Positions 151 through 28,398 of a stretch of DNA of 64,000 nucleotides are shown here, one piece after another. Each line of letters opens with the position of its first letter. Position 1 is the stretch's first letter. The notes beneath the pieces were generated by a model, which was not told where the DNA came from, searched no databases, and was given only the letters and a program-made list of their open reading frames with translations. The translations under genes and the position numbers were made by a program. Source of the DNA: Sporosarcina sp. PTS2304 (GTDB taxonomy: Bacteria; Bacillota; Bacilli; Bacillales_A; Planococcaceae). The stretch covers positions 3,138,501 to 3,202,500 of the forward strand of contig NZ_CP031230.1 of NCBI RefSeq assembly GCF_003351785.1. Reading direction: 5' to 3'.

Positions 151-823
151 GCGTGCTATGAGCGGAAGTCGTCATTCTATGATCAGAACCGCACGTGCTA
201 TGAGCGGAAGTCGTCATTCTATGATCGGAACCGCGCGTGCTATGAGCGGAAGTGGTCATTCTATGATCGGAACCGCGCGTGCTATGAGCGGAAGTGGTCA
301 TTCTATGATCGGAACCGCGCGTGCTATGAGCGGAAGTGGTCATTCTATGATCGGAACCGCACGTGCTATGAGCGGAAGTGGTCATTCTATGATCGGAACC
401 GCGCGTGCTATGAGCGGAAGTGGTCATTCTATGATCAGAACCGCACGTGCTATGAGCGGAAGTGGTCATTCTATGATCGGAACCGCACGTGCTATGAGCG
501 GAAGTGGTCATTCTATGATCGGAACCGCACGTGCTATGAGCGGAAGTGGTCATTCTATGATCGGAACCGCGCGTGCTATGAGCGGAAGTGGTCATTCTAT
601 GATCAGAACCGCACGTGCTATGAGCGGAAGTGGTCATTCTATGATCGGAACCGCACGTGCTATGAGCGGAAGTGGTCATTCTATGATCGGAACCGCACGT
701 GCTATGAGCGGAAGTGGTCATTCTATGATCAGAACCGCGCGTGCTATGAGCGGAAGTAGTCATTCTATGATCGGAACCGCGCGTGCTATGAGCGGAAGTG
801 GTCATTCTATGATCGGAACCTCA
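151..823 (-). repeat. CGCTCATAG tandem array 1 (32 half-units, 21-nt period)
   Basis: The core reads CTATGAGCG or CTATGATCG on the + strand, which is CGCTCATAG or CGATCATAG on the minus strand. It occurs 32 times from 156 to 807, always exactly 21 nt apart. Two alternating 12-nt spacers give a 42-bp super-unit. Because 21 is a multiple of three, every frame stays open across the array, so the long reading frames here are artefacts. The array starts 21 nt after the MMPL stop codon with no terminator in between, and ends next to the terminator at 101-138. It would therefore be the 3' untranslated part of the MMPL message. Confidence 0.95.
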
Positions 824-835
824 CACTTCATCCGT

Positions 836-2983
836 TCACTCTTCGCGCCCTCTAGATATCTGGCTGTTCGAGCGGTACAGTCCTTTACCGAATGGGAGCC
901 ACCAGTTCCATTTGCCGAATAGTTTCATCAGGCTTGGGACGAGAAGGAGCCGGATGATGGTTGCATCGATTGCGACAGCGACAGCAATGCCGACGCCGAT
1001 TTGCTTGACGGGCATGACGTCGGTGAATGCGAATGCACCTGTAAGGACGATCATGATAAGTGCGGCAGAAGTGATGACTTTACTCGTGGTAGCGAGTCCC
1101 TCTACAGTGGATTTGTCGTTATCAAATGAATACGAGAATTCCTCTTGCATGCGAGAGATTAAAAATACTTCATAGTCCATACTCAAACCGAAGACGAGAC
1201 TGAAGACGATGACGGGAATGATGAGCGCCACCGTGCCAGGATGCAGCCCAAAATGACCGTATTGGAAAATGTACACTAAGATTCCGAATGTGGCAGAGAG
1301 TCCTAAAATATTCATCAAAATCGCTTTGATCGGGATGATTAACGATCGAAATGCGACTAATAAGATGAAAAATGTGGAAACAACAATAATAAGCAAGACG
1401 TAGACGATGTGATCTGCAATTTCATCGAAAATTTCTTGGTTGAAACGTGGCTCTCCGCCAATCAGCAAGTTCCAGTCGGCTGTAGCGGACCAGTCACGTA
1501 CCCAATCTTGGGCTTCATTTGAACTGCCGGCTGCGCGTAAGGTGACGGGAATCAGCAGTCGGTTCGTGTCGGTCAACTCTTTTAATAATGGATTTAGCTG
1601 ATCATATAGCGGAGGCACTTTTAGCCGGTTTTCCCACTCGGCTGGTGTTTCGATGCCGCTAAGAGTGAAGATCGTCGAAACGTCCTTTACTAATGAGTCC
1701 TCCGTTAACTGGTCTTGAAGTGTTTTCATCGCGTTAAGGCCTTCAGTCGTTTTCCATCCACCTTCACGTTCAGCCAATATATAGACGGTACTTTCCGCAT
1801 CAAGTTCGAATGTCTCTTGCATTTTTTCGAAGGCGGTACGGGTGTCGAATGACTCTGGCAATGAATCAATTTGGGGAATTGTCAGTTCCATATTGCGTAC
1901 AGGAATAACTGCGATCGCTAGCAGCACAAACGCTACGAGAGCAATGGTTACAGGTCTTTTAATGACACCGTTCGCAAACTTGCGCCAGCCATTCGCATCT
2001 TCTGTGTGATCTTTCAGCAATCGCCCTTTATGAATTCGTTCGCCTAACACTAAAAGAACTGCCGGCAATAAAGTGAGTGAAGAAATAACGGCCATGCCGA
2101 CGACGATCATACCGCCAACCGCGATATTCATGAAAATATCCACTCGAATAAGCAACATGGCGCCGAGTCCGATAAAGACACAGATCGCGGAGAAAATAAT
2201 CGAGCGGCCCGCTGTGCGGATCGTCATAATAATAGAATCCACGATAGATTGCTTTTTTAATTCTTCGCGGTAACGGCTGATGAACAACAACGCAAAGTCG
2301 ATACTTAGTGCCAGCCCGAGCATAGGGACGATATTGAGCACGAAAATGGACAGCTCCACTTGATTGCCTAGTATTCCCATCACACCTAACGTAGACACAA
2401 CGGTACCGATTCCTACAATTAAAGGAACGAACGAAGCGACGATTGTGCCGAATGCGAACAGCAAAACGATGATTGCAATCGGCAAGCCAATAGCCTCCGC
2501 AGTCATCAAATCACGCTGACTTGCCTGATTGACGTCATGTTCAAATGCACCACCGCCTGTTAGGACGATACCTTCCTCTTTGGCAAATGAAGCGCGAATG
2601 TCTGAAACGACTTGCGGCATATTATCGGGTGCTTCATTGAAATGTAAGAGTGCATAAGATAAATCATTCGTATATTGTGCGTCTTCCGCTAACGGAGAAA
2701 CGATTTCCGACGCAATGTGAAGCGTATCCAGTCTTTCTAAAGTAGCATCGATTTCGGCATCGGTTTTCCCATCGAATACGATCAACAATGACTCAGCAGG
2801 CAAGCCGAAATCTTCCGAGATGATCTTCATGACTTTTTCATGTTCGCCATCGACTCTAAATCCATCTCCTGCTAAAAGACCGGGAAGTTGAATGGCAAAG
2901 TACGTCATGATGCCGAAAAAGACAAGCCAGAAAGCAAGAATCCACTTATAAGACGTAGTGACAAACTTTGCGAATGGCAGCAA
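836..2983 (-). CDS. MMPL/RND-family membrane transporter (YdfJ-like)
   Basis: This 715-residue membrane protein has the two-fold MMPL layout: a first membrane segment, an extracytoplasmic domain, a block of helices carrying ALSIDFALLFISRYREE near residue 240, a second soluble domain, and a second block carrying FGLSMDYEVFLISRM near residue 600. The acidic residues inside these helices are the usual proton-relay positions of RND/MMPL exporters. Family members export lipids or hydrophobic compounds; the substrate here is unknown. I place the start at a TTG (2981-2983) because AAAGGAGG sits 7 nt upstream, whereas the in-frame ATG 33 nt further upstream has no ribosome site. The length is close to that of B. 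subtilis YdfJ. Confidence 0.9.
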   Translation of the reverse strand: MLPFAKFVTTSYKWILAFWLVFFGIMTYFAIQLPGLLAGDGFRVDGEHEKVMKIISEDFGLPAESLLIVFDGKTDAEIDATLERLDTLHIASEIVSPLAEDAQYTNDLSYALLHFNEAPDNMPQVVSDIRASFAKEEGIVLTGGGAFEHDVNQASQRDLMTAEAIGLPIAIIVLLFAFGTIVASFVPLIVGIGTVVSTLGVMGILGNQVELSIFVLNIVPMLGLALSIDFALLFISRYREELKKQSIVDSIIMTIRTAGRSIIFSAICVFIGLGAMLLIRVDIFMNIAVGGMIVVGMAVISSLTLLPAVLLVLGERIHKGRLLKDHTEDANGWRKFANGVIKRPVTIALVAFVLLAIAVIPVRNMELTIPQIDSLPESFDTRTAFEKMQETFELDAESTVYILAEREGGWKTTEGLNAMKTLQDQLTEDSLVKDVSTIFTLSGIETPAEWENRLKVPPLYDQLNPLLKELTDTNRLLIPVTLRAAGSSNEAQDWVRDWSATADWNLLIGGEPRFNQEIFDEIADHIVYVLLIIVVSTFFILLVAFRSLIIPIKAILMNILGLSATFGILVYIFQYGHFGLHPGTVALIIPVIVFSLVFGLSMDYEVFLISRMQEEFSYSFDNDKSTVEGLATTSKVITSAALIMIVLTGAFAFTDVMPVKQIGVGIAVAVAIDATIIRLLLVPSLMKLFGKWNWWLPFGKGLYRSNSQISRGREE

Positions 2984-3079
2984 TGTAGTTCCTCCTTTTC
3001 CTATGTATTGGGTCATATTGTATGTTCATCATAACGAAAAACGTACAGAATGTCTTATGGAAATAAGAAAAGAAATGCA

Positions 3080-3115
3080 CAAAAAAACCACTCCCTAAAA
3101 GGAAGTGGTTTGTGA
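3080..3115 (-). terminator. Intrinsic terminator of the cold shock gene
   Basis: On the minus strand, AAACCACTTCC and GGGAGTGGTTT form a stem followed by a T run, just after the cold shock stop codon. Confidence 0.8.
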
Positions 3116-3122
3116 AGTTAAA

Positions 3123-3323
3123 TTAGTTTTTAGTTACGTTAGTAGCTTGAAGTCCGCGCTGACCTTGTTCGATCTCGAATGATACTTCTTGACCTTCTTC
3201 AAGTGTTTTGAACCCGTCGCCTTGGATAGCTGAGAAGTGTACGAATACGTCGTCGCCATCTTCACGTTCGATGAAGCCATAACCTTTTTCTGCGTTAAAC
3301 CATTTTACTTTACCTTGTTCCAT
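3123..3323 (-). CDS. cspB: Cold shock protein (CspA/CspB family)
   Basis: This 66-residue single cold-shock-domain protein carries both RNA-binding motifs, KGYGFIE (RNP1) near residue 15 and VFVHFSAI (RNP2) near residue 27. The family binds single-stranded RNA and DNA and acts as an RNA chaperone in the cytoplasm. The ATG at 3323 is chosen because AAGGAGG lies 7-8 nt upstream and the length matches B. subtilis CspB and CspD exactly. A near-consensus promoter at 3442-3470 implies a leader of about 110 nt, as expected for cold shock mRNAs. A terminator follows, so the gene is monocistronic. The paralogue symbol (cspB versus cspD) is not certain. Confidence 0.95.
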
Positions 3324-3441
3324 GTTTGTTTCCTCCTTGTGTACGGTTGTGTACACATTGTATTACTATCCTTGCTCAATTTCTTAAAAACGGTCGAGAT
3401 GAAATCATTGACCTTGCGTCGAACAAAAATAATTCTTCTTT

Positions 3442-3470
3442 ATCATACCAAGTATTGTTAAAGATTGCAA
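3442..3470 (-). promoter_or_regulatory. SigA-type promoter of the cold shock gene
   Basis: On the minus strand, TTGCAA (-35) and TATGAT (-10) are separated by exactly 17 nt. Initiation near 3434 would leave an untranslated leader of roughly 110 nt before the Csp start. Confidence 0.75.
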
Positions 3471-3479
3471 GTTAAAATA

Positions 3480-4478
3480 TTATAAGAAGAGTGCGAATAG
3501 TTTATAAACAATAGCCGCCACGATAGCTGAAATGGGCATTGTGATGACCCAAGTGAAGACGATTCTCTGCGCCACGCCCCACTTTACACCTTTAAAACGC
3601 TGTGCAGATCCCACTCCCATAATAGAAGAAGAAATCACGTGTGTCGTGCTGACTGGCAAGTGAAGAAGGGTGGCGCCGAAAATGATTATGGCAGAATTCA
3701 AGTCAGCTGCTATGCCGTGAATCGGTCGGATTTTCATGATTTTGCCGCCGACAGTTTTGATGATTTTATAGCCGCCGATTGACGTGCCAAGTCCCATTGC
3801 GGTAGCTGCTGCGATACGCACCCACAGCTGGATGTCATCGGACGTTTGCAATTCCGCAGCGATCAAAGCCATCGTCATAATTCCCATTGCTTTTTGTGCA
3901 TCATTCGTTCCGTGCGTGAATGATTGAATAGCCGCTGTGGCGATTTGCATATAACGAATTCGTCGATTGGCTTTAAATAAATTTCGATTCTTTAATACCG
4001 TCCGTAAAATACTCATCACGATAAATCCGCCGACAAGCGCAATGAAAGGTGATAAGAGAAGGGCTTGAATGATCTTGATGAAGCCGCCGTAATTTAAAAT
4101 GCCGAATCCAGCCGCCGCAATAGCAGCCCCTGCGATGGAACCGATCAAAGCATGCGATGAACTGGAAGGGATGCCGAAATACCACGTAACTAAGTTCCAA
4201 ATGATAGCGGAAACGAGTGCTGCTAAAATGACGAGGGAGCCGTTATCCAGCGTAAACGGATCGACGATATCTTTTGTGATCGTCTTGGCCACCCCTGTAA
4301 ATGTCATAGCACCGACAAAGTTCATAACCGCCGCCATCATAACGGCTGTGCGCGGTTTTAAAGCACGGGTCGAGACAGATGTGGCAATTGCGTTCGCTGT
4401 ATCGTGAAATCCATTGATGAAGTCGAATGCTAAAGCGAACACGACCACGAGAATGGTCAATAGAAGAATCGTATCCAT
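3480..4478 (-). CDS. pit: PiT-family inorganic phosphate transporter
   Basis: This 332-residue polytopic membrane protein has two inverted family signatures: NGFHDTANAIAT near residue 24 and THGTNDAQKAMGIM near residue 190. PiT proteins import phosphate (often as a metal-phosphate complex) with cations. It lies 13 nt after the DUF47/PhoU-like gene on the same strand, the usual arrangement in Bacillales. The start is either ATG (4478) or the TTG immediately before it; AAGGAG is 6-9 nt upstream of both. Confidence 0.93.
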   Translation of the reverse strand: MDTILLLTILVVVFALAFDFINGFHDTANAIATSVSTRALKPRTAVMMAAVMNFVGAMTFTGVAKTITKDIVDPFTLDNGSLVILAALVSAIIWNLVTWYFGIPSSSSHALIGSIAGAAIAAAGFGILNYGGFIKIIQALLLSPFIALVGGFIVMSILRTVLKNRNLFKANRRIRYMQIATAAIQSFTHGTNDAQKAMGIMTMALIAAELQTSDDIQLWVRIAAATAMGLGTSIGGYKIIKTVGGKIMKIRPIHGIAADLNSAIIIFGATLLHLPVSTTHVISSSIMGVGSAQRFKGVKWGVAQRIVFTWVITMPISAIVAAIVYKLFALFL

Positions 4479-4491
4479 CAATCAGTGCTCC

Positions 4492-5112
4492 TTATGCGTT
4501 GCGCATGATGATTGTTTCGATATTATTTGCGACGTCCTGACAATAATCTGCGATATCTTCCAGCAACTCATACAAATCTTTTAGCTGAATGATACGAATA
4601 GGATCTTTTTCATTTAAAAATAATTGTTTAATCGATGTGCGCAACACTTCATCGCAAATACGCTCATATTCCTTTATTTGCACAGCATGCGTACGCATCT
4701 CGACTAGTTTTTTCTTCGTTAATAACTCCATGGCCGCAACGATTTCATCGGTACTTTTCATAATATTTTCGATAAACGTCTGCATGTATTCATCTATTTC
4801 AATGAAAGAAAACATTTCCAGATTGGCAAAATAATGTTCGATACCGTCCAAAATATCATCCATTGTAATAGCGATTTCCAAAATATCTTCTCGTTCGATA
4901 GGTGTGATAAACGACGCATTCAGTTTCGTAATCAGTTCATGAATCAATGTATCACCGGACGTTTCATATGCTTTCATGCGCGTGCTGACTTCCTGCAAAT
5001 CAGCGATGCTTTCTACTTTACAGTCATTGGCATAATGCATCGATTGTTGAACGTGCAGAGCGATATCTAATAAGGCAGTGAAAAAAGGATCTGTTTTACG
5101 TTGACCTAACAT
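4492..5112 (-). CDS. ykaA: DUF47/PhoU-like accessory protein of the Pit transporter
   Basis: This 206-residue, almost entirely helical soluble protein belongs to the DUF47 (TIGR00153, PhoU-like) family. Conserved acidic stretches such as EREDILEIAITMDDILDGIE (near residues 72-91) are typical of the metal-binding sites of PhoU bundles. Family members are encoded next to Pit transporters and are thought to control them. I choose ATG 5112 because GGAGG lies 7 nt upstream and the length fits B. subtilis YkaA; a longer frame to 5157 lacks this support. Cotranscribed with pit. Confidence 0.9.
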   Translation of the reverse strand: MLGQRKTDPFFTALLDIALHVQQSMHYANDCKVESIADLQEVSTRMKAYETSGDTLIHELITKLNASFITPIEREDILEIAITMDDILDGIEHYFANLEMFSFIEIDEYMQTFIENIMKSTDEIVAAMELLTKKKLVEMRTHAVQIKEYERICDEVLRTSIKQLFLNEKDPIRIIQLKDLYELLEDIADYCQDVANNIETIIMRNA

Positions 5113-5222
5113 GTAGCTACCTCCATCTATTATTGGCATCAATCGTTTATCCATCATACCAAAAGAAATACGTAAAAGGATAGCGAATGGTGTGAGGAAT
5201 TGACTTTATATAAGAAGAAGTT

Positions 5223-5252
5223 TTGTATACAGAAATTAATTCGTGCTAGAAT
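5223..5252 (+). promoter_or_regulatory. Candidate extended -10 promoter for the MFS exporter
   Basis: TTGTAT and TAGAAT are 18 nt apart and the -10 is preceded by TGC (extended -10). Initiation near 5260 would exclude the long upstream in-frame starts and favour the ATG at 5287 (or 5272). Confidence 0.5.
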
Positions 5253-5286
5253 GAATGAATTATTAATAGAAATGAGTTTTGTCCAC

Positions 5287-6498: not shown

Positions 6499-6567
6499 TT
6501 CAAATTTTCTCATAAATAAGGCATGATAGAGAAAGAGTCTGATTACAATTTCGAGAGGTGGATGAAA

Positions 6568-7950: not shown

Positions 7951-8038
7951 TAATTTGTCATAAGATTGTGCGCGTGTGTTCGCAATGAATCGAGTATACT
8001 GAAGTTATTACGTTCACACGAAGGAGTTTCAACTAGCT

Positions 8039-8563
8039 ATGAATAAGAAAATACTTGCGGCATTGGCGGCGCTCACTTTGGCGTTGGCGGCTTGTGGAAA
8101 TGGTGCGACGGAAAAACCCGAAGAAGTCGATCCTCAAGATGTACGTGCTGAAGCTGGTCATGATCATACAGAACATCTTCCGAATGGTGATTTGCAAGAA
8201 GTGACTGCTTCAGCGGATATTTTGCCATCGTTTTTAGATGATAAGCCTGAAGATATGCGTATGGTTTACCAAGTGGCAGGCAAAGCGACGGATATTTTGG
8301 AGTATATGCCTTGCTACTGCGGCTGTGGCGATAGCGCGGGCCATAAGAGTAACTTGAATTGCTTCCTGGACGAAGTGCGTGAAGACGGTTCCGTTGTCTG
8401 GGACGATCATGGCACACGCTGCTTGGTTTGTCTGGAGATTGCAGTGAAATCTGTGCAGATGAAGCAAGACGGCAAATCCATGAAAGAAATCCGCGATGCC
8501 ATTGATGCGGAGTACGGCAATGGAAATTATGCAAAGCCAACAGATACACCAATGCCAGCTTAA
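8039..8563 (+). CDS. PCYCGC-motif lipoprotein
   Basis: This 174-residue secreted protein has a lipoprotein signal peptide (LALAAC, lipidation Cys about residue 19), a His-rich stretch (AGHDHTEH), and the family motif MPCYCGCGDSAGHKS near residue 94 followed by further cysteines (NCF, CLVC). It matches the PCYCGC domain family (PF13798) of Bacillales. The six or more Cys residues suggest metal or cofactor binding outside the membrane, but the function is unknown. AAGGAG is 12 nt upstream of the ATG. A terminator follows directly. Confidence 0.9.
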   Translation: MNKKILAALAALTLALAACGNGATEKPEEVDPQDVRAEAGHDHTEHLPNGDLQEVTASADILPSFLDDKPEDMRMVYQVAGKATDILEYMPCYCGCGDSAGHKSNLNCFLDEVREDGSVVWDDHGTRCLVCLEIAVKSVQMKQDGKSMKEIRDAIDAEYGNGNYAKPTDTPMPA

Positions 8564-8576
8564 TCGCAACCAGTTC

Positions 8577-8611
8577 ACCCCCCTTTCCTTTTTAGGAAAG
8601 GGGGTGTTTTC
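8577..8611 (+). terminator. Intrinsic terminator
   Basis: CACCCCCCTTTCC and GGAAAGGGGGTG form a long GC-rich stem followed by TTTT. It separates the lipoprotein gene from repeat array 2. Confidence 0.9.
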
Positions 8612-8614
8612 ATT

Positions 8615-9020
8615 GAAGCATGTGTTGTCGCGCTCATAGGGTGAGTGTTTCCGCTCATAGCGTGTGTTGTCGCGCTCATAGGGAGAGTGTTTCCGCTCAT
8701 AGCATGCGTTGTCGCGCTCATAGGGTGAGTGTTTCCGCTCATAGCACGCGTTGTCGCGCTCATAGGAAGAGTGTTTCCGCTCATAGCATGCGTTGTCGCG
8801 CTCATAGGGAGAGTGTTTCCGCTCATAGCATGCGTTGTCGCGCTCATAGGGTGAGTGTTTCCGCTCATAGCACGCGTTGTCGCGCTCATAGGGCGAGTGT
8901 TTCCGCTCATAGCATGCGTTGTCGCGCTCATAGGAGGAGTGTTTCCGCTCATAGCATGCGTTGTCGCGCTCATAGGAAGAGTGTTTCCGCTCATAGCATT
9001 CGTCGCGACGCTCATAGAAA
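8615..9020 (+). repeat. CGCTCATAG tandem array 2 (19 half-units, 21-nt period)
   Basis: CGCTCATAG occurs 19 times between 8631 and 9017, every copy exactly 21 nt from the next. Two alternating spacers (about GGNGAGTGTTTC and CATGCGTTGTCG) make a 42-bp super-unit. The spacers differ from those of the other arrays while the core is the same. It lies 3' of the PCYCGC gene, after that gene's terminator, with the core on the coding strand. Open frames across it are a by-product of the 21-nt period. Confidence 0.95.
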
Positions 9021-9063
9021 TCAACTCTCGCCACACATAACTCATTCAAATCTTCTCGTTTTA

Positions 9064-9120: not shown

Positions 9121-10113
9121 ATGATACGATTTGTTGAGTTTGATGAACAATATTTGCCGCAGATGGCCGCGTTATTGGCGACTAGACATCAAGAAGAACG
9201 GAGACGCTTTCCATTTTTGCAACAGCGGTTTGAGGAAGTGGGGCAGGCGGAGCAGCGTTTGTGGGAAGAGATGCGTAAGCCGTATGTAGGCGGGTTGGTT
9301 ACGTTGCGTGATGATGATGTTATAGGGTATTTGTTGTATGAATATCGTCAGGATGTGACGCGTGGCCGTACGGTATATGTCGGCTATCCTTCGTTTGTGA
9401 TGCATGAAGACGAGCATCCGCGGTTGGCGCGTTTGATGTATACGGAGGTGGGAGCGGAGTGGATCCGCAATGGCTACTTTGAGCATGTGGTGGATGCGCC
9501 GGTTGGCAATGATGAGTTGATCTTGGAGTTGCTGGAACAGTCTTTCCGTTTTGAACAGCGGTTTGCTGCGTTGTCTTTGGAGAATTATCGAGCGCAACCG
9601 GGAGAGAATAGTCTCGTGAAAGTGAAGGAATTGAAGGCCGATGAACAGCAGATGTTGCGGAAGATGGCGCCTTGGAATAGTATGCATCAGGCAAAAGCGC
9701 CCGCGTGGAAGCCGATTACACAAGAGGCCTTGGATGCGGAGCGTGATATGTTGAGTGCTTACGAAGGCAAGGAAGGAACGCGTAGCTGGGTGGCGGAGCA
9801 AGATGACGCGCCTGTTGCTTTCCATTTATTCACAACGGCTGATGCTAGACATGCGATGACTACACCTGATCAGGCGGCGGTTCTTGTGCAGGCGGCGACG
9901 AATATTGAGTTGCGTGGACAAGGAATCGGGAAGTCGATTGCGAATCATAGTTTTACTCAAATGAAAAAAGCTGGCTATGAATATCTGATGACGGACTGGT
10001 ATACAGCGAATCATTTAGCATCATATTTCTGGCCGAAACTTGGATTCCGTTCATATATGATCCGCATGGCGCGTTCAGTAGATGCACGCATTGCCTGGGC
10101 GGATGGGCAATGA
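9121..10113 (+). CDS. GNAT-family N-acetyltransferase
   Basis: This 330-residue protein has an N-terminal degenerate GNAT half and a C-terminal half with the acetyl-CoA-binding pattern ELRGQGIGKSIANHSF near residue 262, followed by the typical TDWYTANHLASYFWPKLGF segment. It should transfer an acetyl group to an amine, but the acceptor is unknown. AGGAGGGG lies 7 nt upstream of the ATG. Its stop overlaps the next start (ATGA), so the two genes are translationally coupled. Confidence 0.88.
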   Translation: MIRFVEFDEQYLPQMAALLATRHQEERRRFPFLQQRFEEVGQAEQRLWEEMRKPYVGGLVTLRDDDVIGYLLYEYRQDVTRGRTVYVGYPSFVMHEDEHPRLARLMYTEVGAEWIRNGYFEHVVDAPVGNDELILELLEQSFRFEQRFAALSLENYRAQPGENSLVKVKELKADEQQMLRKMAPWNSMHQAKAPAWKPITQEALDAERDMLSAYEGKEGTRSWVAEQDDAPVAFHLFTTADARHAMTTPDQAAVLVQAATNIELRGQGIGKSIANHSFTQMKKAGYEYLMTDWYTANHLASYFWPKLGFRSYMIRMARSVDARIAWADGQ

Positions 10114-20203: not shown

Positions 20204-20277
20204 CTTTGTATATAAAGACCACAACTTTAGAGAAATTATAGATGTTACTAATTTTTATCATTATAACTAGCCAAACC

Positions 20278-20312
20278 AAGTAGTGCCTGCGGTTGTCGCG
20301 GGTACTTTTTAT
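20278..20312 (+). terminator. Intrinsic terminator
   Basis: AGTA...CCTGCG and CGCGGGTACT form a stem with a 3-nt bulge, followed by five T. Confidence 0.6.
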
Positions 20313-20419
20313 CGTTCACTTGTGGGCATAGGTGAAAAGATGATTACAAACTACTAGTATTATAATGATAGAATGATAATAGGGAATAGAGTTAATTACA
20401 TCAACAGAGGAGGGAACAA

Positions 20420-21664
20420 ATGAAGAAAATCATTCAACTCACGTGGCTCGTAGCTTTAGCTTTTGCTCTGTCAATCGGCGGCATGGGGACAGGTCAAGCG
20501 GCGGTGAAGGAATTCAAAGACGTGTCAAAGAAACATCCGAACTATAACGCCATTCAAGCGATCCAAGAAGCAGGCTACATTACGGGGTATCCCGACGGAA
20601 CGTTTCGACCAAGCCAAAGCATTAGCCGCAAACACGTAGCCAAATTATTGGACAAAGCGCTCAATATGCCGGCCTATACGGGTGGAAAAGTAGTCTACAA
20701 AGATATACCGAAAAACCATCCATACTACTCAGCTATCATGAACTTGACAGAAGCGGGAATTTTCAGCGGGGGGCTCGATGGAAAGTTCAATCCGGAAGCA
20801 GCAATTACCCGTATTCAAATGGCGAAAGTATTGGATTTGGCGTATGACTTCAATATGACAGCGTACGATATGTTCGAAGACGTCTACCGCAATCATTGGG
20901 GCTATGTACACGCGAATGCGCTAGCTTCCAGTGGAGTGGCGAGAGGGGATGCAGGAAAATTTTATCCGAATCGTCCTGTGACGCGCGCACATTATACGGA
21001 GTTTTTACACCGTGCCATTCAAGCGAAAAAAGCAGATCCAAGCCTCGGGAAAGTGACAAAGAACAAGGCCATTGATTTGTCTAATCGGTTGACGAATAAA
21101 ATTGAATACACATTAGTTGAAGGAAAGAGACAGAAAAAGACGTTTGCTCAACTGCGTCCGGAGTTATTGAAATATGCGACGCTAGAGTTTGTGGAAGGCA
21201 ATCTTCAAGAATACTATCCACTTGTCTGTACAGAGTGTGACCAGTTTTTATTCCCATTCCAATTGCGTTCAGAATTTAACTTGCGCTTTAATTTCACCGA
21301 GCCGACACCGAATCGAATAAGTGTAGAAACGGTAGAATTTGGTGACGGCTTGGCACATGGTGGATTTGTGGGTTATTTATTCAAAAAAGTGTCAGGAACT
21401 TGGAAGATGGAAGACTATACGTACGAAATGGTCGGGAAAAAGAATTTCAAGCTGACAGTGGATGAAGCGAAACAAATTATTCGCCATGACTTTTTATCTT
21501 ATAATGACACAGTAGATGTGAAGTATGTTTCTAAAAAACAAGCGACTAAAAAGGATATTGTAACGGAAGAGAAGTATACGTACGACGTCTATACGTTCAC
21601 TGTTACGACGAATGTCGATACGGAAACCGTCCAGTTGGATTCGGATTCAGGCATGTATTATTGA
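20420..21664 (+). CDS. Secreted SLH-domain protein (tandem paralogue 1)
   Basis: This 414-residue protein has a signal peptide (to about residue 28), three SLH repeats (FKDVSKKHPNYNAIQAI, YKDIPKNHPYYSAIMNL, FEDVYRNHWGYVHANAL), and a C-terminal domain of about 200 residues with a CTEC pair near residue 272 and a conserved VDEAKQII stretch. The same architecture and C-terminal domain recur in the gene at 24815. The C-terminal domain is unassigned. GGAGGG precedes the ATG. The IS66 element and array 3 separate the two paralogues. Confidence 0.9.
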   Translation: MKKIIQLTWLVALAFALSIGGMGTGQAAVKEFKDVSKKHPNYNAIQAIQEAGYITGYPDGTFRPSQSISRKHVAKLLDKALNMPAYTGGKVVYKDIPKNHPYYSAIMNLTEAGIFSGGLDGKFNPEAAITRIQMAKVLDLAYDFNMTAYDMFEDVYRNHWGYVHANALASSGVARGDAGKFYPNRPVTRAHYTEFLHRAIQAKKADPSLGKVTKNKAIDLSNRLTNKIEYTLVEGKRQKKTFAQLRPELLKYATLEFVEGNLQEYYPLVCTECDQFLFPFQLRSEFNLRFNFTEPTPNRISVETVEFGDGLAHGGFVGYLFKKVSGTWKMEDYTYEMVGKKNFKLTVDEAKQIIRHDFLSYNDTVDVKYVSKKQATKKDIVTEEKYTYDVYTFTVTTNVDTETVQLDSDSGMYY

Positions 21665-21668
21665 ACAA

Positions 21669-21711
21669 TGAAAGTGGCGAGGGTCGACAATGGCTCTCGT
21701 CACTTTTTTCG
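21669..21711 (+). terminator. Intrinsic terminator
   Basis: AGTGGCGAGGG pairs, with G-U pairs, with CTCTCGTCACT and is followed by six T, directly after the SLH gene and before array 3. Confidence 0.75.
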
Positions 21712-21800
21712 TTCGGCTTCTACTTTACGCAAACCTACAGCGCTGATTGTCCGCTTTACTCCCTGTTCGCAAAATTCATACGAGCGCCACGAGTAAGTCA

Positions 21801-22043
21801 CGCTCATAGAGTCGTTGTATTCGCTCATAGAAAGTGCTTATGCGCTCATAGAGTCGTTGTATTCGCTCATAGAAAGTGCTTATGCGCTCATAGAGTCACT
21901 GTATTCGCTCATAGAAAGTGCTTATGCGCTCATAGAGTCACTGTATTCGCTCATAGAAAGTGCTTATGCGCTCATAGAGTCGTTGTATTCGCTCATAGAA
22001 AGTGCTTATGCGCTCATAGAATCGTTGTATTCGCTCATAGAGT
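21801..22043 (+). repeat. CGCTCATAG tandem array 3 (12 half-units, cut by IS66)
   Basis: CGCTCATAG occurs 12 times from 21801 to 22032, each copy exactly 21 nt apart. The spacers alternate between AGTCGTTGTATT-like and AAAGTGCTTATG. The array lies 3' of an SLH gene and its terminator, core on the coding strand. The IS66 element begins within the spacer of the last unit; its other side continues at 24552 with the duplicated CATAGAGT and a degenerate end of the array. Confidence 0.95.
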
Positions 22044-22126
22044 GTAAGCGTCAAAAGAAGGACACATTCCTCTCTTCCTCTTTTAATGAGAAACTATGAC
22101 TAGCTTATTGGAAAGGAAGTAGAGAA

Positions 22127-22474
22127 ATGAATGAACCAACCCTTCAGCCCTTGGCTGAGCACAGTAAAACCGATTTGGAATGGACAGAAATCATCGAAGA
22201 GTGGCGACGAAGTGGAGAAAATATGGCCGAGTGGGTCAGAAGACAAAGCGATTTCTCCTATGATCAATTCGCAAAAGCACGGAGGCGGCTCTCTCCGGAG
22301 GATACACGCAAAGGAGAATTTTTGGAATCCAAAACCACTTGGTCATCTGTTGCGGTCGCCCTTCCTTCTTCCACAGTAGATCTTCATTATCGGGACTACA
22401 AATTAGTGATCAGCAGCGGCTTCGACCGCGAACTGGTACAAGAGTTACTGGAGGTGTTGGCTGATGCGAATTAA
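22127..22474 (+). CDS. tnpA: IS66 accessory protein TnpA
   Basis: This 115-residue protein of the IS66 first-frame family has a helix-turn-helix-like N-terminal half (WTEIIEEWRRSGENMAEWVR) and the conserved end VISSGFDRELVQELLEVL. In IS66 elements it is needed for transposition alongside TnpB and TnpC. GGAAAGGAAG precedes the ATG. It overlaps tnpB by 11 nt. Confidence 0.9.
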   Translation: MNEPTLQPLAEHSKTDLEWTEIIEEWRRSGENMAEWVRRQSDFSYDQFAKARRRLSPEDTRKGEFLESKTTWSSVAVALPSSTVDLHYRDYKLVISSGFDRELVQELLEVLADAN

Positions 22475-22823
22475 TCTGGAAGGTATTCAGGGGATTTATC
22501 TGGCACATGGCGCAACGGATATGCGGCTGTCCATTGATGGTCTGTCTGCGAAGGTGCAGGAAACCTTTCAGGCAAATCCGTGTTCCTCCAATTTATTTAT
22601 CTTTTGTAACCGGGATCGCGACCGTTTAAAAATCCTGCACTGGGACTACAATGGCTTCTGGTTGTACTACCGGCGACTGGAAACTGGCCGCTTTCACTGG
22701 CCTGACGGCCAAGAAGAAGAAACCACGTCTATCAGCCCGCGCCAGCTTCAATGGATGCTCGATGGATTGACTATTGAAGAAGGAAAAGTCTTCCCCCGTA
22801 TACTGGGAAACAAAATCGTATAA
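22464..22823 (+). CDS. tnpB: IS66 accessory protein TnpB
   Basis: This 119-residue protein of the IS66 Orf2 family has IYLAHGATDMRLSIDGL near residue 11, LFIFCNRDRDRLKILHWD and FHWPD, all signature stretches. Its start lies inside the tnpA 3' end, so translation is coupled. The biochemical role within the transposition complex is not settled. Confidence 0.94.
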   Translation: MRINLEGIQGIYLAHGATDMRLSIDGLSAKVQETFQANPCSSNLFIFCNRDRDRLKILHWDYNGFWLYYRRLETGRFHWPDGQEEETTSISPRQLQWMLDGLTIEEGKVFPRILGNKIV

Positions 22824-22865
22824 ATCACAAAGTTTTTTTAAAAAGCAGAAGGACTTTGTCAGCTT

Positions 22866-24479
22866 TTGGCGAATTTTACTTTTATGAAAACTAATCAGAA
22901 GATCTCATCCCATACAACTGAACAGAATGACCGTGTAACTGTGTTGGAACAAGAAGTCGCGAGATTGTCCGCTTTGGTGTCTTGGTACGAGGAGCAGTTT
23001 CGTTTGAAAAAAAGTAAGGAATTTGGACGCTCCAGCGAAAAGGCACCGAAAGGCCAGATGGAGATGGAATTGTTTAATGAAGCAGAAGCACTGCTAGATG
23101 CTTCTGCTGAACCATCTTCAGAACCTGAAGAGGTGATTTCGGGATCTTCACCTGCGAAAAAAACTCCACGGGAAACACGCACGACTTTCTCTGCCGATCT
23201 GCCGGTGGAGAGTGTGACATACAGCTTGCCCCCAGAGGAGCAGGCTTGTTTAGATTGCGGTCACCCAATGCATGTCATGAAAAAAGAAGTTCGCCGCGAA
23301 CTCGTGGTTATCCCAGCACAAGTGAAAGTCGTCGAACACGAACGGGAAGTCTATGCCTGCAGGCATTGCGATCAAGAAGGCATCCAGACACCGATTGTTC
23401 AGGCACCAATGCCCAATCCGGTATTGCCAAAAAGTATGGCCTCGCCCTCGATCCTGTCATTTTTGATTACTCAAAAATACTTGTTCGGCATGCCGCTCTA
23501 TCGGTTAGAGGAAGTTTTTCGACAGGCAGGCGCGCCGCTTTCAAGGCAGACCCTCTCCAATTGGTTAATGAATGTGTCCGATCGGTGGTTTGAACCGCTC
23601 TATGAGAATATGCGACAGCGTATTTTGTCAGCCGACTACCTTCATGCAGACGAAACCAGTGTGCAGGTCTTGCGTGAAAAAGGACGCAGTCCCTCTACCA
23701 CTTCCTATATGTGGCTGTACCGTACCGGGAAGTTTGATGTCCCTTGCGTGGTGTATGACTACCAGCCTGGTCGGGGATCGGAATACCCGAAACAATTTCT
23801 GGAAGGCTATGCTGGTACGCTTCATGTAGATGGTTATAAGGCTTACGAAAGCCTGCAAAGTGTACGGCTATCAGGCTGTTGGGCACATTTGCGCCGAAAA
23901 TTTGATGAAGCCCTGCGCGCCATTCCGAAAAAATCGAAGAGGCGGCGTACGCTGACAGAGGAAGCAGTCAACCAAATCGGCAAGATTTATGGAGCGGAAT
24001 CAGAAATAAAGGAGCTTACTCCTTCCGAACGGCTTGAGGTACGCAAGAAAAAAATTGAGCCCCTAGTGGAGGCTTTTTTCGCCTGGGTAAAAACTGTCCG
24101 AATAGATGTACTGCCGAAAAGCAAGCTTGGTGAGGCGCTAACATATGCCGTCAATCAGGAAAAGAAATTGAGGCAGCCATTTCTAGATGGTTATCTGGAG
24201 ATAGATAATAACCGTGCCGAACGAAGCATCAAGCCGTTTGTGATCGGCCGAAAGAACTGGCTCTTCTCGGTCACACCTAGAGGCGCAACAGCGAGCGCAA
24301 GAATGTACAGCCTGATCGTAACTGCGAAAGAAAATCAGCTGCATGTCCCTCACTATTTAACGTATCTTCTTGAAAAGCTGCCTAACTTAGATCTGGCAGA
24401 TGACGAACAGTTGGAACAACTGATGCCTTGGTCTTCGACTTTGCCTGAACAGTGTTATCAAGGTAAAGAAGGAATATAA
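22866..24479 (+). CDS. tnpC: IS66 family transposase TnpC
   Basis: This 537-residue transposase has an N-terminal coiled-coil/leucine-rich segment, a zinc-finger-like region (CLDCGHPMHV and CRHCDQEG near residues 125-170), and a DDE catalytic core. Candidate acidic residues are in ADYLHADETSVQV, VDGYKAYESL and the C-terminal DNNRAERSIKPFVIGRKNW segment, which holds the family's E. The TTG start at 22866 is supported only by a distant AAGGA; ATG 22884 is the alternative. No frameshift or premature stop is seen. Confidence 0.95.
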   Translation: MANFTFMKTNQKISSHTTEQNDRVTVLEQEVARLSALVSWYEEQFRLKKSKEFGRSSEKAPKGQMEMELFNEAEALLDASAEPSSEPEEVISGSSPAKKTPRETRTTFSADLPVESVTYSLPPEEQACLDCGHPMHVMKKEVRRELVVIPAQVKVVEHEREVYACRHCDQEGIQTPIVQAPMPNPVLPKSMASPSILSFLITQKYLFGMPLYRLEEVFRQAGAPLSRQTLSNWLMNVSDRWFEPLYENMRQRILSADYLHADETSVQVLREKGRSPSTTSYMWLYRTGKFDVPCVVYDYQPGRGSEYPKQFLEGYAGTLHVDGYKAYESLQSVRLSGCWAHLRRKFDEALRAIPKKSKRRRTLTEEAVNQIGKIYGAESEIKELTPSERLEVRKKKIEPLVEAFFAWVKTVRIDVLPKSKLGEALTYAVNQEKKLRQPFLDGYLEIDNNRAERSIKPFVIGRKNWLFSVTPRGATASARMYSLIVTAKENQLHVPHYLTYLLEKLPNLDLADDEQLEQLMPWSSTLPEQCYQGKEGI

Positions 24480-24814
24480 ATCAACATATATACTTATCTA
24501 GTATAAAGAGAACCACATCTCATTTGAAGGTGTGGTTCTTTTGACGCTTACCATAGAGTCGGTATTCGTAATGAACAAAACTTTATAACAGTATAATATT
24601 TTACAATTAGTGGGAACAATTGAAATAAATTTTAAAAAACATGCATACTTTACGTGGAATGGGGTAAAGAATCTTATCAATACATAACTATATGAAAAAT
24701 AGTCGGAATATTCTGTTATTAATTGTATACGAATAGCATTCTATCTAGTAAAATAGAATGAACAAGTATCGTGCAGCTACCGCCGGCGAAAAAACATGCG
24801 GGGAGGAAAAGGTT

Positions 24815-26062
24815 ATGAAGGGGATCTGTCGAGTTGTTGTAGGTACACTATTGTTCGTGATGCTTTCATTCACCATTTTTACAGGAGTCAATCAAGCGGC
24901 AGTTAAAAGTTTTAAAGATGTACCGACTACGCATTCGAATTACAAAGCGATTCAGTACATGGCGGAAAGAGGATATATCGGTGGATATCCAGATGGGAAT
25001 TTCCGTCCGCAAGAGCTAATCAGCCGTAAACACGTCGCAGCTTTATTGGATAAAGTGCTAAAGTTGCCACAGCCAACGAGTACAAAGGCGAAATTCTATG
25101 ATGTGCCGAAGAACCATCCGTATTATTCTTCTATTATGAAATTATCTGAGGCGGGGATTGTTAGCGGAGGGCCGGATGGAAGGTTTAACCCAGACGCACC
25201 TGTCACTCGTATCCAGATGGCGAAAGTGCTGGACTTAGCGTTTGATTTACACATGACCACGCAAAACGCATTTTATGACGTATATCCTGATCACTGGGGC
25301 TACGTTCATGCCAATGCTCTTTATTCCAGCGGGGTAGCGAAAGGATATCAGGGAGAGTTTTTACCGAATGAATCTGTGACACGCGCGCATTATGCGGAGT
25401 TTTTATACCGTGCGATGTTAGTACGCGATGCACGTCCAGCAGGAAATGCGATGACCAAAGGAAAAGCGTGGGATCTGTCAAATCGAATTCCTTATTTAAT
25501 TGAGCAAACGATGAGAAAAGGACAGACGAACGGTCAGCCATACGCGGACATCAAGATGGAGTTATCTAAATATGCTACGAAAGATGTTGTGGACAATACG
25601 CTAGTCAATTATTATGCAAAAGCGTGTATGGAGTGCTACAACCAAGCGCTTCCCGTGTTGCGTATGGAGCCGCTCGTCCGTTTTAACTTTACACAACCAG
25701 ATGCGAATACGCTCCATGTCAAAACGATTGAGTTCCAAAACGGCATTTCCACTGGCGGTTTCGTAGACTACACGTTTAAAAAGCAAAATAGTCATTGGAA
25801 ATTAGCTTCCTTCACGTATACGCCAGCCGGCACAAAGAACTTCGAGTTTACAGTGGACGAAGCGAAAAAAGTGATTGAGGCGGAATATAAATCTTACAAT
25901 TACAAAGAAGTCGTCATTAAATACGTTACAAAAACGCAACAAATTGAACTAGATCCAGTCACCGACGCTCCTTACACATTCGACCAATACGTCTTCAACG
26001 CAGAGACAGAATACGGTCGATACAAAGTACACTTCAATGCATCCGACGGGCTTATGCAATAA
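24815..26062 (+). CDS. Secreted SLH-domain protein (tandem paralogue 2)
   Basis: This 415-residue protein has a signal peptide and three SLH repeats (FKDVPTTHSNYKAIQYM, FYDVPKNHPYYSSIMKL, FYDVYPDHWGYVHANAL). Its C-terminal domain is homologous along its length to that of the gene at 20420, with CMEC near residue 272 and VDEAKKVI. The ATG at 24815 follows GGGGAGG at a good distance; the frame is open further upstream to 24758 without a ribosome site. The pair probably arose by tandem duplication before array 3 and IS66 separated them. Confidence 0.9.
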   Translation: MKGICRVVVGTLLFVMLSFTIFTGVNQAAVKSFKDVPTTHSNYKAIQYMAERGYIGGYPDGNFRPQELISRKHVAALLDKVLKLPQPTSTKAKFYDVPKNHPYYSSIMKLSEAGIVSGGPDGRFNPDAPVTRIQMAKVLDLAFDLHMTTQNAFYDVYPDHWGYVHANALYSSGVAKGYQGEFLPNESVTRAHYAEFLYRAMLVRDARPAGNAMTKGKAWDLSNRIPYLIEQTMRKGQTNGQPYADIKMELSKYATKDVVDNTLVNYYAKACMECYNQALPVLRMEPLVRFNFTQPDANTLHVKTIEFQNGISTGGFVDYTFKKQNSHWKLASFTYTPAGTKNFEFTVDEAKKVIEAEYKSYNYKEVVIKYVTKTQQIELDPVTDAPYTFDQYVFNAETEYGRYKVHFNASDGLMQ

Positions 26063-26077
26063 AGAATGAGCAACTAG

Positions 26078-26122
26078 CAAGCCACATTCTATGAGCGATC
26101 ATGGAACGTGGCTTGTATTTTT
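26078..26122 (+). terminator. Intrinsic terminator with a lone array core in its loop
   Basis: CAAGCCAC pairs with GTGGCTTG and is followed by TATTTTT. The loop contains CTATGAGCG (26089-26097), the complement of the CGCTCATAG array core, as a single copy. Confidence 0.8.
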
Positions 26123-26236
26123 GGAGGATGTATTCATAAGAATGTTGTTCACGCCTGTTGTCTTGTTCACCCACCTCGGCTATGGTACTCTGTAAGTACT
26201 GAAAAACTGTATGTGCGTGAGGAAGGATGGAACGAT

Positions 26237-26458
26237 ATGAACTTCGAAGAAATTTTGCCGCGTCTGAAAGCGGGAGAAAAAGTGATTCGTGGGAATTGGG
26301 GCGGCGCGGAATTATATGTGAAGCTGGTTCCGGCAGAAACATTGGATGGCGAGACGATGAACCCGTATTTTGTGATCAATGTGCGAGGAGAAGGCTATAC
26401 GATGTTTACTCCAACAGTATGTGATTTATTGGCGGATGATTGGAAAATTGTTGAGTAA
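26237..26458 (+). CDS. DUF2829 / Tad2-like small protein
   Basis: This 73-residue protein begins MNFEEILPRLKAGEKVIRGNW and ends with MFTPTVCDLLADDWKIVE, the typical ends of the DUF2829 family. Phage members of this family (Tad2) bind signalling nucleotides and block Thoeris defence. Here it sits among ordinary chromosomal genes between an SLH gene and an SDR gene, so a phage role is not implied. ATG 26237 is preceded by AGGAAGG; upstream in-frame sequence runs through the preceding terminator and is not coding. Confidence 0.82.
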   Translation: MNFEEILPRLKAGEKVIRGNWGGAELYVKLVPAETLDGETMNPYFVINVRGEGYTMFTPTVCDLLADDWKIVE

Positions 26459-26465
26459 GATGTGG

Positions 26466-26495
26466 AAGTTCATGGGGATCCATGAGCTTTTTTTG
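26466..26495 (+). terminator. Intrinsic terminator
   Basis: AAGTTCATGG and CCATGAGCTT form a stem with one G-U pair and a GGAT loop, followed by seven T. Confidence 0.85.
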
Positions 26496-26511
26496 ATTGG
26501 AGGAGTAGAAA

Positions 26512-27249
26512 GTGAACGGTGAATTTGAGGGTAGATGTGTCTTTATTACAGGGGCGGCTTCGGGAATCGGGCTGGCGCAAGCTATCGAGTTTCTTGAACA
26601 GGGTGCTGAGGTTTTTGGGTTCGACAGGGATCTATCAGGGCTGGATTCATTGGCACGGACGTACGAAGGATTTCGTTATGCAGTCGGAAATGTTCGTGTA
26701 AATGAAGAGGTTTTGGAAGCGGTGAGGGAAGCTGGAGAAGTCGATATTTTATGTAATACGGCTGGGGTGCTGGACGGTTTTGCGAAGACGTTGGAGACGG
26801 ACGAAGCGTTGTGGGATCGCATCCTTGAGACGAATGTAAAAGGGATGTTTCTTGTGACGAATGCATTGTTGCCAAGTATGACCAAGCGGAAGTCAGGCGT
26901 AATTGTGAATATGGCATCGATTGCGGGATTGGTGGCGGGCGGTGGCGGTGCGGCGTATACAGCCTCGAAACATGCCGTCGTCGGTTATACGAAACAGCTA
27001 TCGATGGATTATTGCCGGGAGGGGATCCGTGTCAATGCGATTGCACCGGGTGCGATTGAGACGCCAATGAATGCAGCGGATTTTGCAGGTGACGGTGCGA
27101 TGGCAAAATGGGTAGCCGAGGAAACGCCGGCTGGACGCTGGGCGCAACCGGAAGAAGTGGCGAAGTTGACTGTCTATTTGGCATCGGATGCGTCTAGTTA
27201 TATCCACGGAACGGTTATACCGATTGATGGCGGGTGGACTGCAAAATAA
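26512..27249 (+). CDS. Short-chain dehydrogenase/reductase (FabG-like)
   Basis: This 245-residue Rossmann-fold oxidoreductase has the cofactor motif TGAASGIG (residues 14-21), the CNTAG stretch, the catalytic Ser in NMASIAG and YxxxK in YTASK, and the C-terminal IPIDGGWTAK. An acidic residue after strand 2 (FDRD) suggests NAD(H) preference. Family members reduce 3-oxoacyl-ACP or oxidise diverse alcohols; the substrate is unknown. The GTG start is 8 nt after GGAGGAG. It is flanked by a terminator and by the queT promoter, so it is a single-gene unit. Confidence 0.9.
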   Translation: MNGEFEGRCVFITGAASGIGLAQAIEFLEQGAEVFGFDRDLSGLDSLARTYEGFRYAVGNVRVNEEVLEAVREAGEVDILCNTAGVLDGFAKTLETDEALWDRILETNVKGMFLVTNALLPSMTKRKSGVIVNMASIAGLVAGGGGAAYTASKHAVVGYTKQLSMDYCREGIRVNAIAPGAIETPMNAADFAGDGAMAKWVAEETPAGRWAQPEEVAKLTVYLASDASSYIHGTVIPIDGGWTAK

Positions 27250-27252
27250 TGA

Positions 27253-27281
27253 TTTCCAGCAGAGTTTGTTTCTGCTATACT
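27253..27281 (+). promoter_or_regulatory. Extended -10 promoter of queT
   Basis: TTTCCA and TATACT are 17 nt apart, with TGC directly before the -10. Initiation near 27288 would give a leader of about 114 nt. Confidence 0.6.
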
Positions 27282-27287
27282 AGGCAA

Positions 27288-27390
27288 GCAGACTTTTGTG
27301 CTGCACTACGGAACTTCTTGAAAGAGCGATAGGCTCTCTCTTCCTTTGTCCGTAGTTATTACTAAAACGGCTCTGTGCTGTTTTATAAAG
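27288..27390 (+). promoter_or_regulatory. Structured leader of queT, possible riboswitch or attenuator
   Basis: The leader has an 8-bp stem ACTACGGA/TCCGTAGT (27305-27312 with 27349-27356) enclosing an inner hairpin AGAGC-GATA-GGCTCT, then a second hairpin AAAACGGC/GCTGTTTT just before the ribosome site. GGCTCT occurs in both the inner hairpin and the second hairpin's arm and loop, so alternative pairing with AGAGC is possible. QueT genes are often controlled by preQ1 riboswitches, but the known preQ1-I consensus is not visible. Ligand and class are unassigned. Confidence 0.5.
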
Positions 27391-27401
27391 GAGGAATAGA
27401 T

Positions 27402-27908
27402 ATGACGTTACTCTCTAAAGAGCAACCGCGTACAGCTGTCAGTGAGATTGCCAAAATGGCGATGGTCGCGAGCTTATATGTGGCTGTTACGGTCATGCTT
27501 GCGGTCGTCAGCTTCGGTGCGATTCAATTACGTCTGTCGGAAATGTTCAACTACTTGGCTTTGTTTAACAAGCGATATGTGATCGCTGTTACAGCAGGTG
27601 TCGTGCTAGCGAACTTCTTTTCACCGACTTGGTTTTTGGACGTGCCCGTTGGTGGACTTGCGACGTTTCTTGTATTGATTATTAGCCGTGCTGCGACGAA
27701 GAATATGAAGTCGATGAAGATGAAATTTGTCTGTATGGCTCTCATTGCCGCTTTCTCGATGTTCAGTATCGCAGGTCAATTGACGTTGCTGTATGGGTTA
27801 CCGTTCTGGTTTACCTGGTTTACGGTCGGCGCAGGCGAATTATTGTCGATGACGGTCGGCGGTATGATCATGTTCGCTCTTTCGAAAAAAATAGATTTCA
27901 GTAAATAA
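27402..27908 (+). CDS. queT: QueT-family queuosine precursor transporter
   Basis: This 168-residue hydrophobic protein has five or six helices and matches the QueT family, the substrate-binding (S) component of an ECF transporter for queuosine precursors such as preQ1. Characteristic stretches are IQLRLSEMFNYLALFNKRY near residue 45 and FWFTWFTVGAGELLSMTVGG near the end. It would use the shared ECF ATPase module encoded elsewhere. GGAGG lies 8 nt upstream of the ATG. A terminator follows. Confidence 0.9.
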   Translation: MTLLSKEQPRTAVSEIAKMAMVASLYVAVTVMLAVVSFGAIQLRLSEMFNYLALFNKRYVIAVTAGVVLANFFSPTWFLDVPVGGLATFLVLIISRAATKNMKSMKMKFVCMALIAAFSMFSIAGQLTLLYGLPFWFTWFTVGAGELLSMTVGGMIMFALSKKIDFSK

Positions 27909-27953
27909 TGAAAAGCACATTCCTTTTTGATGGGGAGTGTGCTTTTTTTGTTT
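27909..27953 (+). terminator. Intrinsic terminator of queT
   Basis: AAAGCACATTCC and GGAGTGTGCTTT form a stem with one G-U pair, followed by a T run. Repeat array 4 begins 17 nt later. Confidence 0.88.
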
Positions 27954-27969
27954 GGAGTAGTGGTGGACG

Positions 27970-28398
27970 CGCTCATAGAATTGCGGTTTGCGCTCATAGG
28001 GTGTCCGCGACCGCTCATAGGATTGCGGTATGCGCTCATAGAGTGTCCGCGACCGCTCATAGGATTGCGGTATGCGCTCATAGAGTGTCCGCGACCGCTC
28101 ATAGGATTGCGGTATGCGCTCATAGAGTGTCCGCGACCGCTCATAGGATTGCGGTATGCGCTCATAGGGTGTCCGCAATCGCTCATAGGATTGCGGTATG
28201 CGCTCATAGGGTGTCCGCGACCGCTCATAGGATTGCGGTATGCGCTCATAGGGTGTCCGCGACCGCTCATAGGATTGGGGTATGCGCTCATAGGGTGTCC
28301 GCGACCGCTCATAGGATTGCCGTTTGCGCTCATAGGGTGTCCGCGACCGCTCATAGGATTGGGGTATGCGCTCATAGGGTGTCCGCAATCGCTCATAG
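27970..28398 (+). repeat. CGCTCATAG tandem array 4 (21 half-units, 21-nt period)
   Basis: CGCTCATAG occurs 21 times from 27970 to 28390 at exact 21-nt spacing, with alternating spacers close to GGTGTCCGCGAC and GATTGCGGTATG. A decayed further unit follows near 28409. It lies 3' of queT and its terminator, core on the coding strand. The frames across it are open in all registers and are not genes. From 28400 to 28636 I see nothing else. Confidence 0.95.

Follow-up and report, generated by a model that had tools for sequence, protein, structure and literature searches.

Leading-strand arrays of 21-nt repeats past gene ends in Sporosarcina suggest an undescribed system that marks the ends of transcription units

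We analyzed a stretch of 64,000 nucleotides from Sporosarcina sp. PTS2304 ("the window"; contig NZ_CP031230.1, positions 3,138,501 to 3,202,500) together with the genomes of relatives, including Sporosarcina sp. P13 (Caryophanaceae), which is the nearest named genome that is rich in the element we describe. The window contains four intergenic arrays in which a 9-nt core recurs every 21 nt, and similar arrays are found throughout this genome and in much of the genus. The core is far more constrained than the spacers between the cores. The arrays favor the gaps between convergent genes, they usually read with the leading strand of replication, and two unrelated insertion sequences (ISs) are found exclusively within them. 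Judging from sequence comparisons, the arrays suggest an undescribed system that marks the ends of transcription units.

The four arrays had been listed in a first-pass annotation of this DNA with 32, 19, 12, and 21 cores. Counting confirmed these numbers, and every step within the four arrays is exactly 21 nt, with a higher-order unit of 42 nt. Exact copies of CGCTCATAG occur 69 times in the window, versus 0.34 expected. The claim that all four arrays share one 9-nt core needs a correction, as only half of the cores in array 1 are CGCTCATAG. The list was also incomplete in that the right end of array 3 is an IS66 insertion and a lone core was omitted:

156-815, minus strand: array 1, 32 units of 21 nt, CGCTCATAG (16) alternating with CGATCATAG (16); an MMPL gene (836-3016, minus strand) on one side and a bidirectional terminator (near 101-139) on the other
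8631-9017, plus strand: array 2, 19 units of 21 nt; preceded by a PCYCGC-domain gene (8039-8563) and its terminator, with a GNAT gene (9121-10113) beyond
21801-22040, plus strand: array 3, 12 units of 21 nt; 3' of an SLH-domain gene (20420-21664), with its right end cut by the IS66 element
26089-26097, minus strand: lone core, 3' of an SLH-domain gene; P13 has an array 3' of a related SLH gene (L035)
27970-28398, plus strand: array 4, 21 units of 21 nt; 3' of a QueT-like gene (27375-27908) and its terminator

The lone core adjoins a chromosomal gene (26108-26458) for a protein with a Tad2-like (Thoeris anti-defence) domain (PF11195).

Across the 3.50-Mb genome that contains the window (G000), there are 577 pairs of exact cores at a distance of 21 nt (divided 458 to 119 between the strands), and a reversed-pattern control gave zero pairs. 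We sampled 1.66 Mb of G000 in stretches (48% of the genome), which gave 27 sites after merging arrays that are split by ISs. Within arrays, the core deviates from the array's consensus at 0.88% of positions in G000, versus 15.9% for spacers (interior units of 17 arrays). The corresponding values for P13 are 0.47% and 15.3% (29 arrays). The core is thus less variable than the spacers by a factor of 18-32. Because the letters of the search seed lie within the core, these estimates are partly conditional, so we checked core positions 7-9, which are outside the seed, separately; their deviation is just as low. The spacing is also tightly kept. Steps of 21 nt outnumber steps of 20 nt by 253 to 5 in G000 and by 468 to 11 in P13, and steps of 22 nt never occur. 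The unbroken 21-nt phase that the first-pass annotation described is thus correct for the window, but about 2% of steps genome-wide are 20 nt (about 98% are 21 nt), some relatives have 20-nt or mixed spacing, and one genome from outside the family has 20-nt steps throughout.

The spacers are largely specific to each array, while the core is genome-wide. At five syntenic sites with arrays in both G000 and P13, the core is identical and the spacers match at means of 2.3-4.0 of 12 positions, which is the level expected by chance and no better than between unrelated sites. For example, the site in P13 that is syntenic with array 4 (L069) also has 21 units, with unrelated spacers. At the site of array 2, the arrays of four relatives (G116, G140, G231, and G085) have spacers that are entirely different, and P13 and G230 have no array. 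Since the core is kept through complete replacement of its surroundings, it is very probably read by something in trans. A conserved core with free spacers also favors a factor that reads the core at the level of DNA, in line with the protein-binding or DNA-architecture role that was first suggested. As to how arrays grow, a 174-nt higher-order unit at one locus in G116 (L171), which comprises several 21-nt units and is repeated about 5 times, and the 42-nt dimer units that are common elsewhere suggest expansion in steps of several units.

To describe the placement of the arrays, we predicted genes with a simple hexamer scorer. Arrays account for 0.60% of the sampled DNA in G000 and for 3.2% of its non-coding DNA. 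Half of the classified sites in G000 and P13 (24/48) are between convergent genes, versus 100/672 gaps in the background (p = 5.5e-8), and just 1/48 is between divergent genes, as compared to 152/672 (p = 1.7e-4). The first-pass annotation had placed each array in the window within 140 nt 3' of a stop codon, and the distances are indeed 20, 67, 136, and 61 nt (arrays 1-4). The neighbors of arrays are ordinary genes (for transporters, enzymes, or surface proteins). In a strict scan, 24 of 58 arrays have an intrinsic terminator upstream, whose end is often 20-30 nt ahead of the first core, and 14 have one on the opposite strand beyond the array. The scan undercounts terminators, as the visible one 5' of array 2 escapes it. 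The terminators ahead of the plus-strand arrays in the window are:

8575-8611, plus strand: terminator-like hairpin and T-run directly 5' of array 2, read from the sequence and overlooked by the strict scan
21673-21712, plus strand: intrinsic terminator that ends about 95 nt ahead of array 3
27911-27950, plus strand: intrinsic terminator that ends about 23 nt ahead of the first core of array 4

Because of their position past terminators, the arrays probably lie largely outside of transcripts. Overall, these results support their description as a non-coding, helically phased family at the 3' ends of genes.

We used GC skew as a stand-in for measured replication. By this measure, replication of G000 starts near 2.87 Mb and ends near 1.1 Mb. 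The arrays read with the leading strand at 22/27 sites in G000 (p = 0.0015) and at 34/37 sites in P13 (p = 1.2e-7, with the leading strand inferred from local skew). In gaps between tandem genes, gene direction confounds this polarity, but convergent gaps are free of the problem. Between convergent genes, 10/11 sites in G000 and 13/13 sites in P13 read with the leading strand (23/24, p = 3e-6), and the exception among the 11 is array 1 of the window. In G116, the local skew agrees with 7 of the 8 sampled sites and is near zero around the eighth. The first-pass annotation had put the core on the coding strand of the upstream gene. Arrays often do run in the sense of that gene, but the direction of replication explains their orientation better, given that the convergent sites follow the leading strand and that there are arrays which run against both neighboring genes. 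Of the five exceptional sites in G000, three are opposed to both genes and replication.

The arrays are also the targets of ISs. A 2.5-kb element of the IS66 family is inside an array in 9/9 copies, and a 1.38-kb element of the IS256 family (PF00872) has array on both sides in 8/8 copies, so 17/17 copies are in arrays, which make up just 0.60% of the sampled DNA. Perfect 8-bp target duplications are present for 8 of the 9 IS66 copies. All eight overlap the core, and five begin at the same position of the unit, so that they comprise the core's ATAG or ATTG and four spacer bases. The copy in array 3 is an example:

22044-24551, plus strand: IS66-family element with terminal inverted repeat GTAAGCGTCAAAAGAA; tnpA at 22127-22474, tnpB at 22464-22823, and tnpC at 22866-24479
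22036-22043 (left) and 24552-24559 (right), plus strand: its 8-bp target duplication, CATAGAGT, which overlaps the core of the last unit of array 3

Two IS200/IS605 copies in G000 and two copies of a putative IS21 element (a call from its sequence) are not in arrays. The closest relatives of TnpC, from G223 (74% identity) and G193 (58% identity), are also inside local arrays; among the loci that we fetched, relatives at about 50% identity or less are not. Hence, array targeting looks like a property of one lineage within IS66.

Among 261 genomes of the order, 24 have three copies of a strict-type core at 21-nt intervals. With a relaxed core (CGCTCWW), 39 of the 68 congeners prove to have arrays, and in many of them the matches run into the hundreds; there are almost none in controls. 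The tail of the core is common to many arrays within a species and differs between species: it is ATAG in G000 and P13, and AAG or AAAG in much of G157, G167, G175, and G227. The first-pass annotation overlooked these dialects as well as the two unrelated IS families that insert only in arrays, one copy of which (IS66) is in the window. Outside the family, there are only traces; for example, G614 has a 20-nt version and Metabacillus arenae has short arrays. The arrays had no match in phages or plasmids, and matches in viral contigs were nearly all single, so we rejected a phage or plasmid origin.

Analogous 21-nt arrays with another core, ATACTCGC(G), are present in three Lysinibacillus-type genomes (G049, G127, and G170; loci L138-L149 and L326-L332). 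This family came up by chance, via the reversed control pattern. At 7/7 sites in one of these genomes (G127), the leading strand carries ATACTCGCG; one of the sites is opposed to both neighboring genes. The Lysinibacillus core is the letter-for-letter mirror image (the reverse, not the complement) of CGCTCATA, with the same leading-strand polarity. In a genome of yet another family, CGCTCATA forms a pure 8-nt microsatellite (L116; G491:C9 79200-79287).

We tried several other readings of the arrays. Coding can be rejected, as the arrays are intergenic and no reading frame would survive the 20-nt and 41-nt periods seen in relatives. Rho-utilisation sites were rejected because the excess of C over G in the spacers reverses in Bhargavaea and in G065, which leaves no consistent C-rich strand. 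Structure in RNA or single-stranded DNA was rejected because neither strand folds unusually (z-scores of -1.9 to +0.8 relative to shuffles). The core has no inverted repeat, the spacers show no complementarity above the column expectation, and a spacer dyad that was suggested by eye in G175 shows no covariation where it could be tested (G000, P13, and Bhargavaea). No covariance model in Rfam matches the arrays, and the open-access literature on the core, on 21-bp repeats, and on repeats in Sporosarcina yielded nothing relevant; as the first-pass annotation had thought, we found no named family with these properties. The sole Rfam match in the window is a cspA thermoregulator (81.8 bits; 3082-3553, minus strand), between the MMPL gene and a phosphate transporter gene. 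Other tandem repeats (22/45 nt), with 4.5 copies of the 8-mer AACTTAAG after them, are located at 57515-57675 and are unrelated to the arrays.

Candidate proteins fared no better. The replication terminator protein (RTP) was rejected as the binder, as neither G000 nor P13 has a match above the cut-off, and both are rich in arrays. Clear homologs of RTP (PF02334) are present in 9/68 congeners (G103, G002, G182, G196, G085, G140, G094, G116, and G128), and all nine also carry CGCTC-type arrays (92-494 matches). A transposase of the RAYT type was rejected because the RAYT-like gene in G000, at 3439425, has no adjoining array. G000 has three genes for Y1 transposases, and none of them is beside an array.

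We propose that each array is a cluster of sites, in phase with the helix, to which a sequence-specific factor binds in trans. This factor would read a core of 8-9 bp (CGCTCATAG in G000, dialects elsewhere), and the spacers would only set the two-turn spacing. The arrays lie just outside of transcription units, past the terminators, and mostly point in one direction relative to the movement of the fork. The arrays may well serve the host as binding arrays at the ends of transcription units, although we hold this reading tentatively; the reader would then be a host DNA-binding protein. The likeliest mechanism would then be that an array coated with protein acts as a polar barrier or an insulator: the replication fork and co-directional traffic would pass, and transcription against the fork, such as read-through from the opposing gene or antisense transcription, would be blocked or buffered. 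Alternatively, the target might be torsional stress at gene ends. A polar-barrier role specifically is unlikely. The IS66- and IS256-family elements would use the core, or the factor bound to it, as a harmless landing pad. More broadly, and more speculatively, the arrays could be part of a previously undescribed, genus-wide system of chromosome organization in Bacillota, with phased sites past terminators that keep a fixed polarity to replication, a co-evolving protein that reads the core, polar barriers between transcription units, analogs with another core (the ATACTCGCG of Lysinibacillus), and a role as the exclusive targets of two unrelated IS families.

Several observations weigh against a host binding array. 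By the relaxed pattern, 29/68 congeners have no array, so any function must be dispensable. Some relatives have 20-nt or mixed spacing, and 5/27 sites in G000 run counter to the leading strand. No core-binding protein was identified, and the candidate RTP is absent from G000 and P13. Also, host fitness alone is hard to reconcile with constraint on unit after unit inside arrays of 20-30 units; the core could be needed for propagation. This leads to the strongest rival, a selfish or mutational minisatellite whose core is the recognition site of a fork-linked process and which brings the host no gain. Single-strand annealing, template switching, or a transposase that acts on the lagging-strand template might extend such arrays in one replication polarity, and they would accumulate where insertion is harmless, past terminators. 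Polarity, rapid turnover with 42-nt or 174-nt higher-order units, constraint on the core in every unit, a patchy distribution, and the location in safe gaps would all fit. However, copying of whole units should carry the spacers along, yet the spacers are array-specific and the core is genome-wide. Furthermore, no associated gene was found (the RAYT-like gene stands apart from arrays), and neither strand folds unusually. We take this rival seriously but find it doubtful.

If the arrays instead resemble BIME-2 (a type of bacterial interspersed mosaic element, BIME), they would recruit gyrase, another topoisomerase, or a bending protein to the 3' ends of genes, as positive supercoils build up there, most of all in convergent gaps. 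This would explain the 3'-end and convergent placement, the helical phasing, and insertions like those into BIMEs, but it is improbable: gyrase is universal while the arrays are missing from 29/68 congeners, and one would not expect a gyrase site to have a strict 8-9 bp core, dialects that differ by species, or a polarity relative to replication. Since the arrays follow the leading strand on both replichores, they might also be a signal that guides a DNA translocase (of the FtsK/SpoIIIE type, in the manner of KOPS and SRS) or some other machine that reads the replichore. An essential orienting signal should not be confined to intergenic arrays, be missing from many close relatives, or point the wrong way at about 1 in 5 sites in G000, so this is very unlikely. 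Least likely of all is a function as RNA, whether as an element of the 3' untranslated region, a guide-RNA array, or a Rho-utilisation site. The arrays do often follow a gene in its sense, but they are past terminators, fold no better than shuffles, match no Rfam family, and have no consistent C-rich strand, and their spacers are repeated rather than being diverse guides.

If the host reading is true, then much of a genus has a genome-wide, replication-oriented DNA architecture at gene ends. That the core persists as all of its surroundings are exchanged is strong evidence that something reads it. The arrays make it testable how bacteria separate transcription units and handle head-on conflicts between replication and transcription, and, since every copy of the elements from two unrelated IS families is inside them, they also point to natural landing pads at which genes are spared.

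The arrays belong to none of the families that we considered, a view that rests on the failure of tests for each of these families and not on a proven mechanism. They most invite comparison with repetitive extragenic palindromic (REP) elements and BIMEs, whose placement is comparable (PMC3733652) and which attract specific ISs, including ISRm5 of the IS256 family (PMC1525189). Palindromy, alternating orientation, and an associated transposase are among the features that define REPs and BIMEs (PMC2817692). Binding by gyrase, Pol I, or IHF is a further mark of these elements. Like these elements, the arrays are extragenic and 3' of genes, have hundreds of copies, and prefer convergent and tandem gaps. 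They are also exclusive targets of particular ISs, which is a common feature of REPs and BIMEs rather than a defining one. The arrays fail the defining features: the unit has no imperfect palindrome, all units of an array point one way, and there is no transposase gene (RAYT) flanked by repeats. Conversely, the fixed 21-bp step, the conserved core with free spacers, and the replication polarity set the arrays apart.

TIGR arrays likewise have short conserved blocks that alternate with short spacers of two kinds, but their spacers differ between units, a Tas gene adjoins, and they are transcribed (PMC12045711). Here, spacers repeat and the neighbors are housekeeping genes, in place of the diverse spacers and adjoining effector gene that would indicate CRISPR or TIGR.

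KOPS and SRS are polar sequences, dispersed genome-wide as single sites. Their leading-strand polarity on both replichores holds for the arrays as well, but the arrays consist of phased sites in intergenic regions only, and 29/68 congeners lack them. The Sal boxes of eukaryotic ribosomal DNA, which bind TTF-I, and bacterial Ter sites, which bind Tus or RTP, are tandem or polar sites for terminator proteins past gene ends, and they act on transcription and forks from one side. As a comparison of how the arrays might work, repeated or polar sites past gene ends are shared, but the arrays are spread over the chromosome instead of being at one locus or at the terminus, and G000 has no RTP gene. 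Finally, like bacterial minisatellites or variable number tandem repeats, whose tandem units expand, contract, and homogenise, the arrays turn over. The unit of an ordinary minisatellite would drift evenly, and we know of no ordinary minisatellites with a core so constrained and so widely shared: in these arrays, the core is 18-32 times more constrained than the spacers, is common to many unlinked loci and to several species, and is kept as the spacers change.

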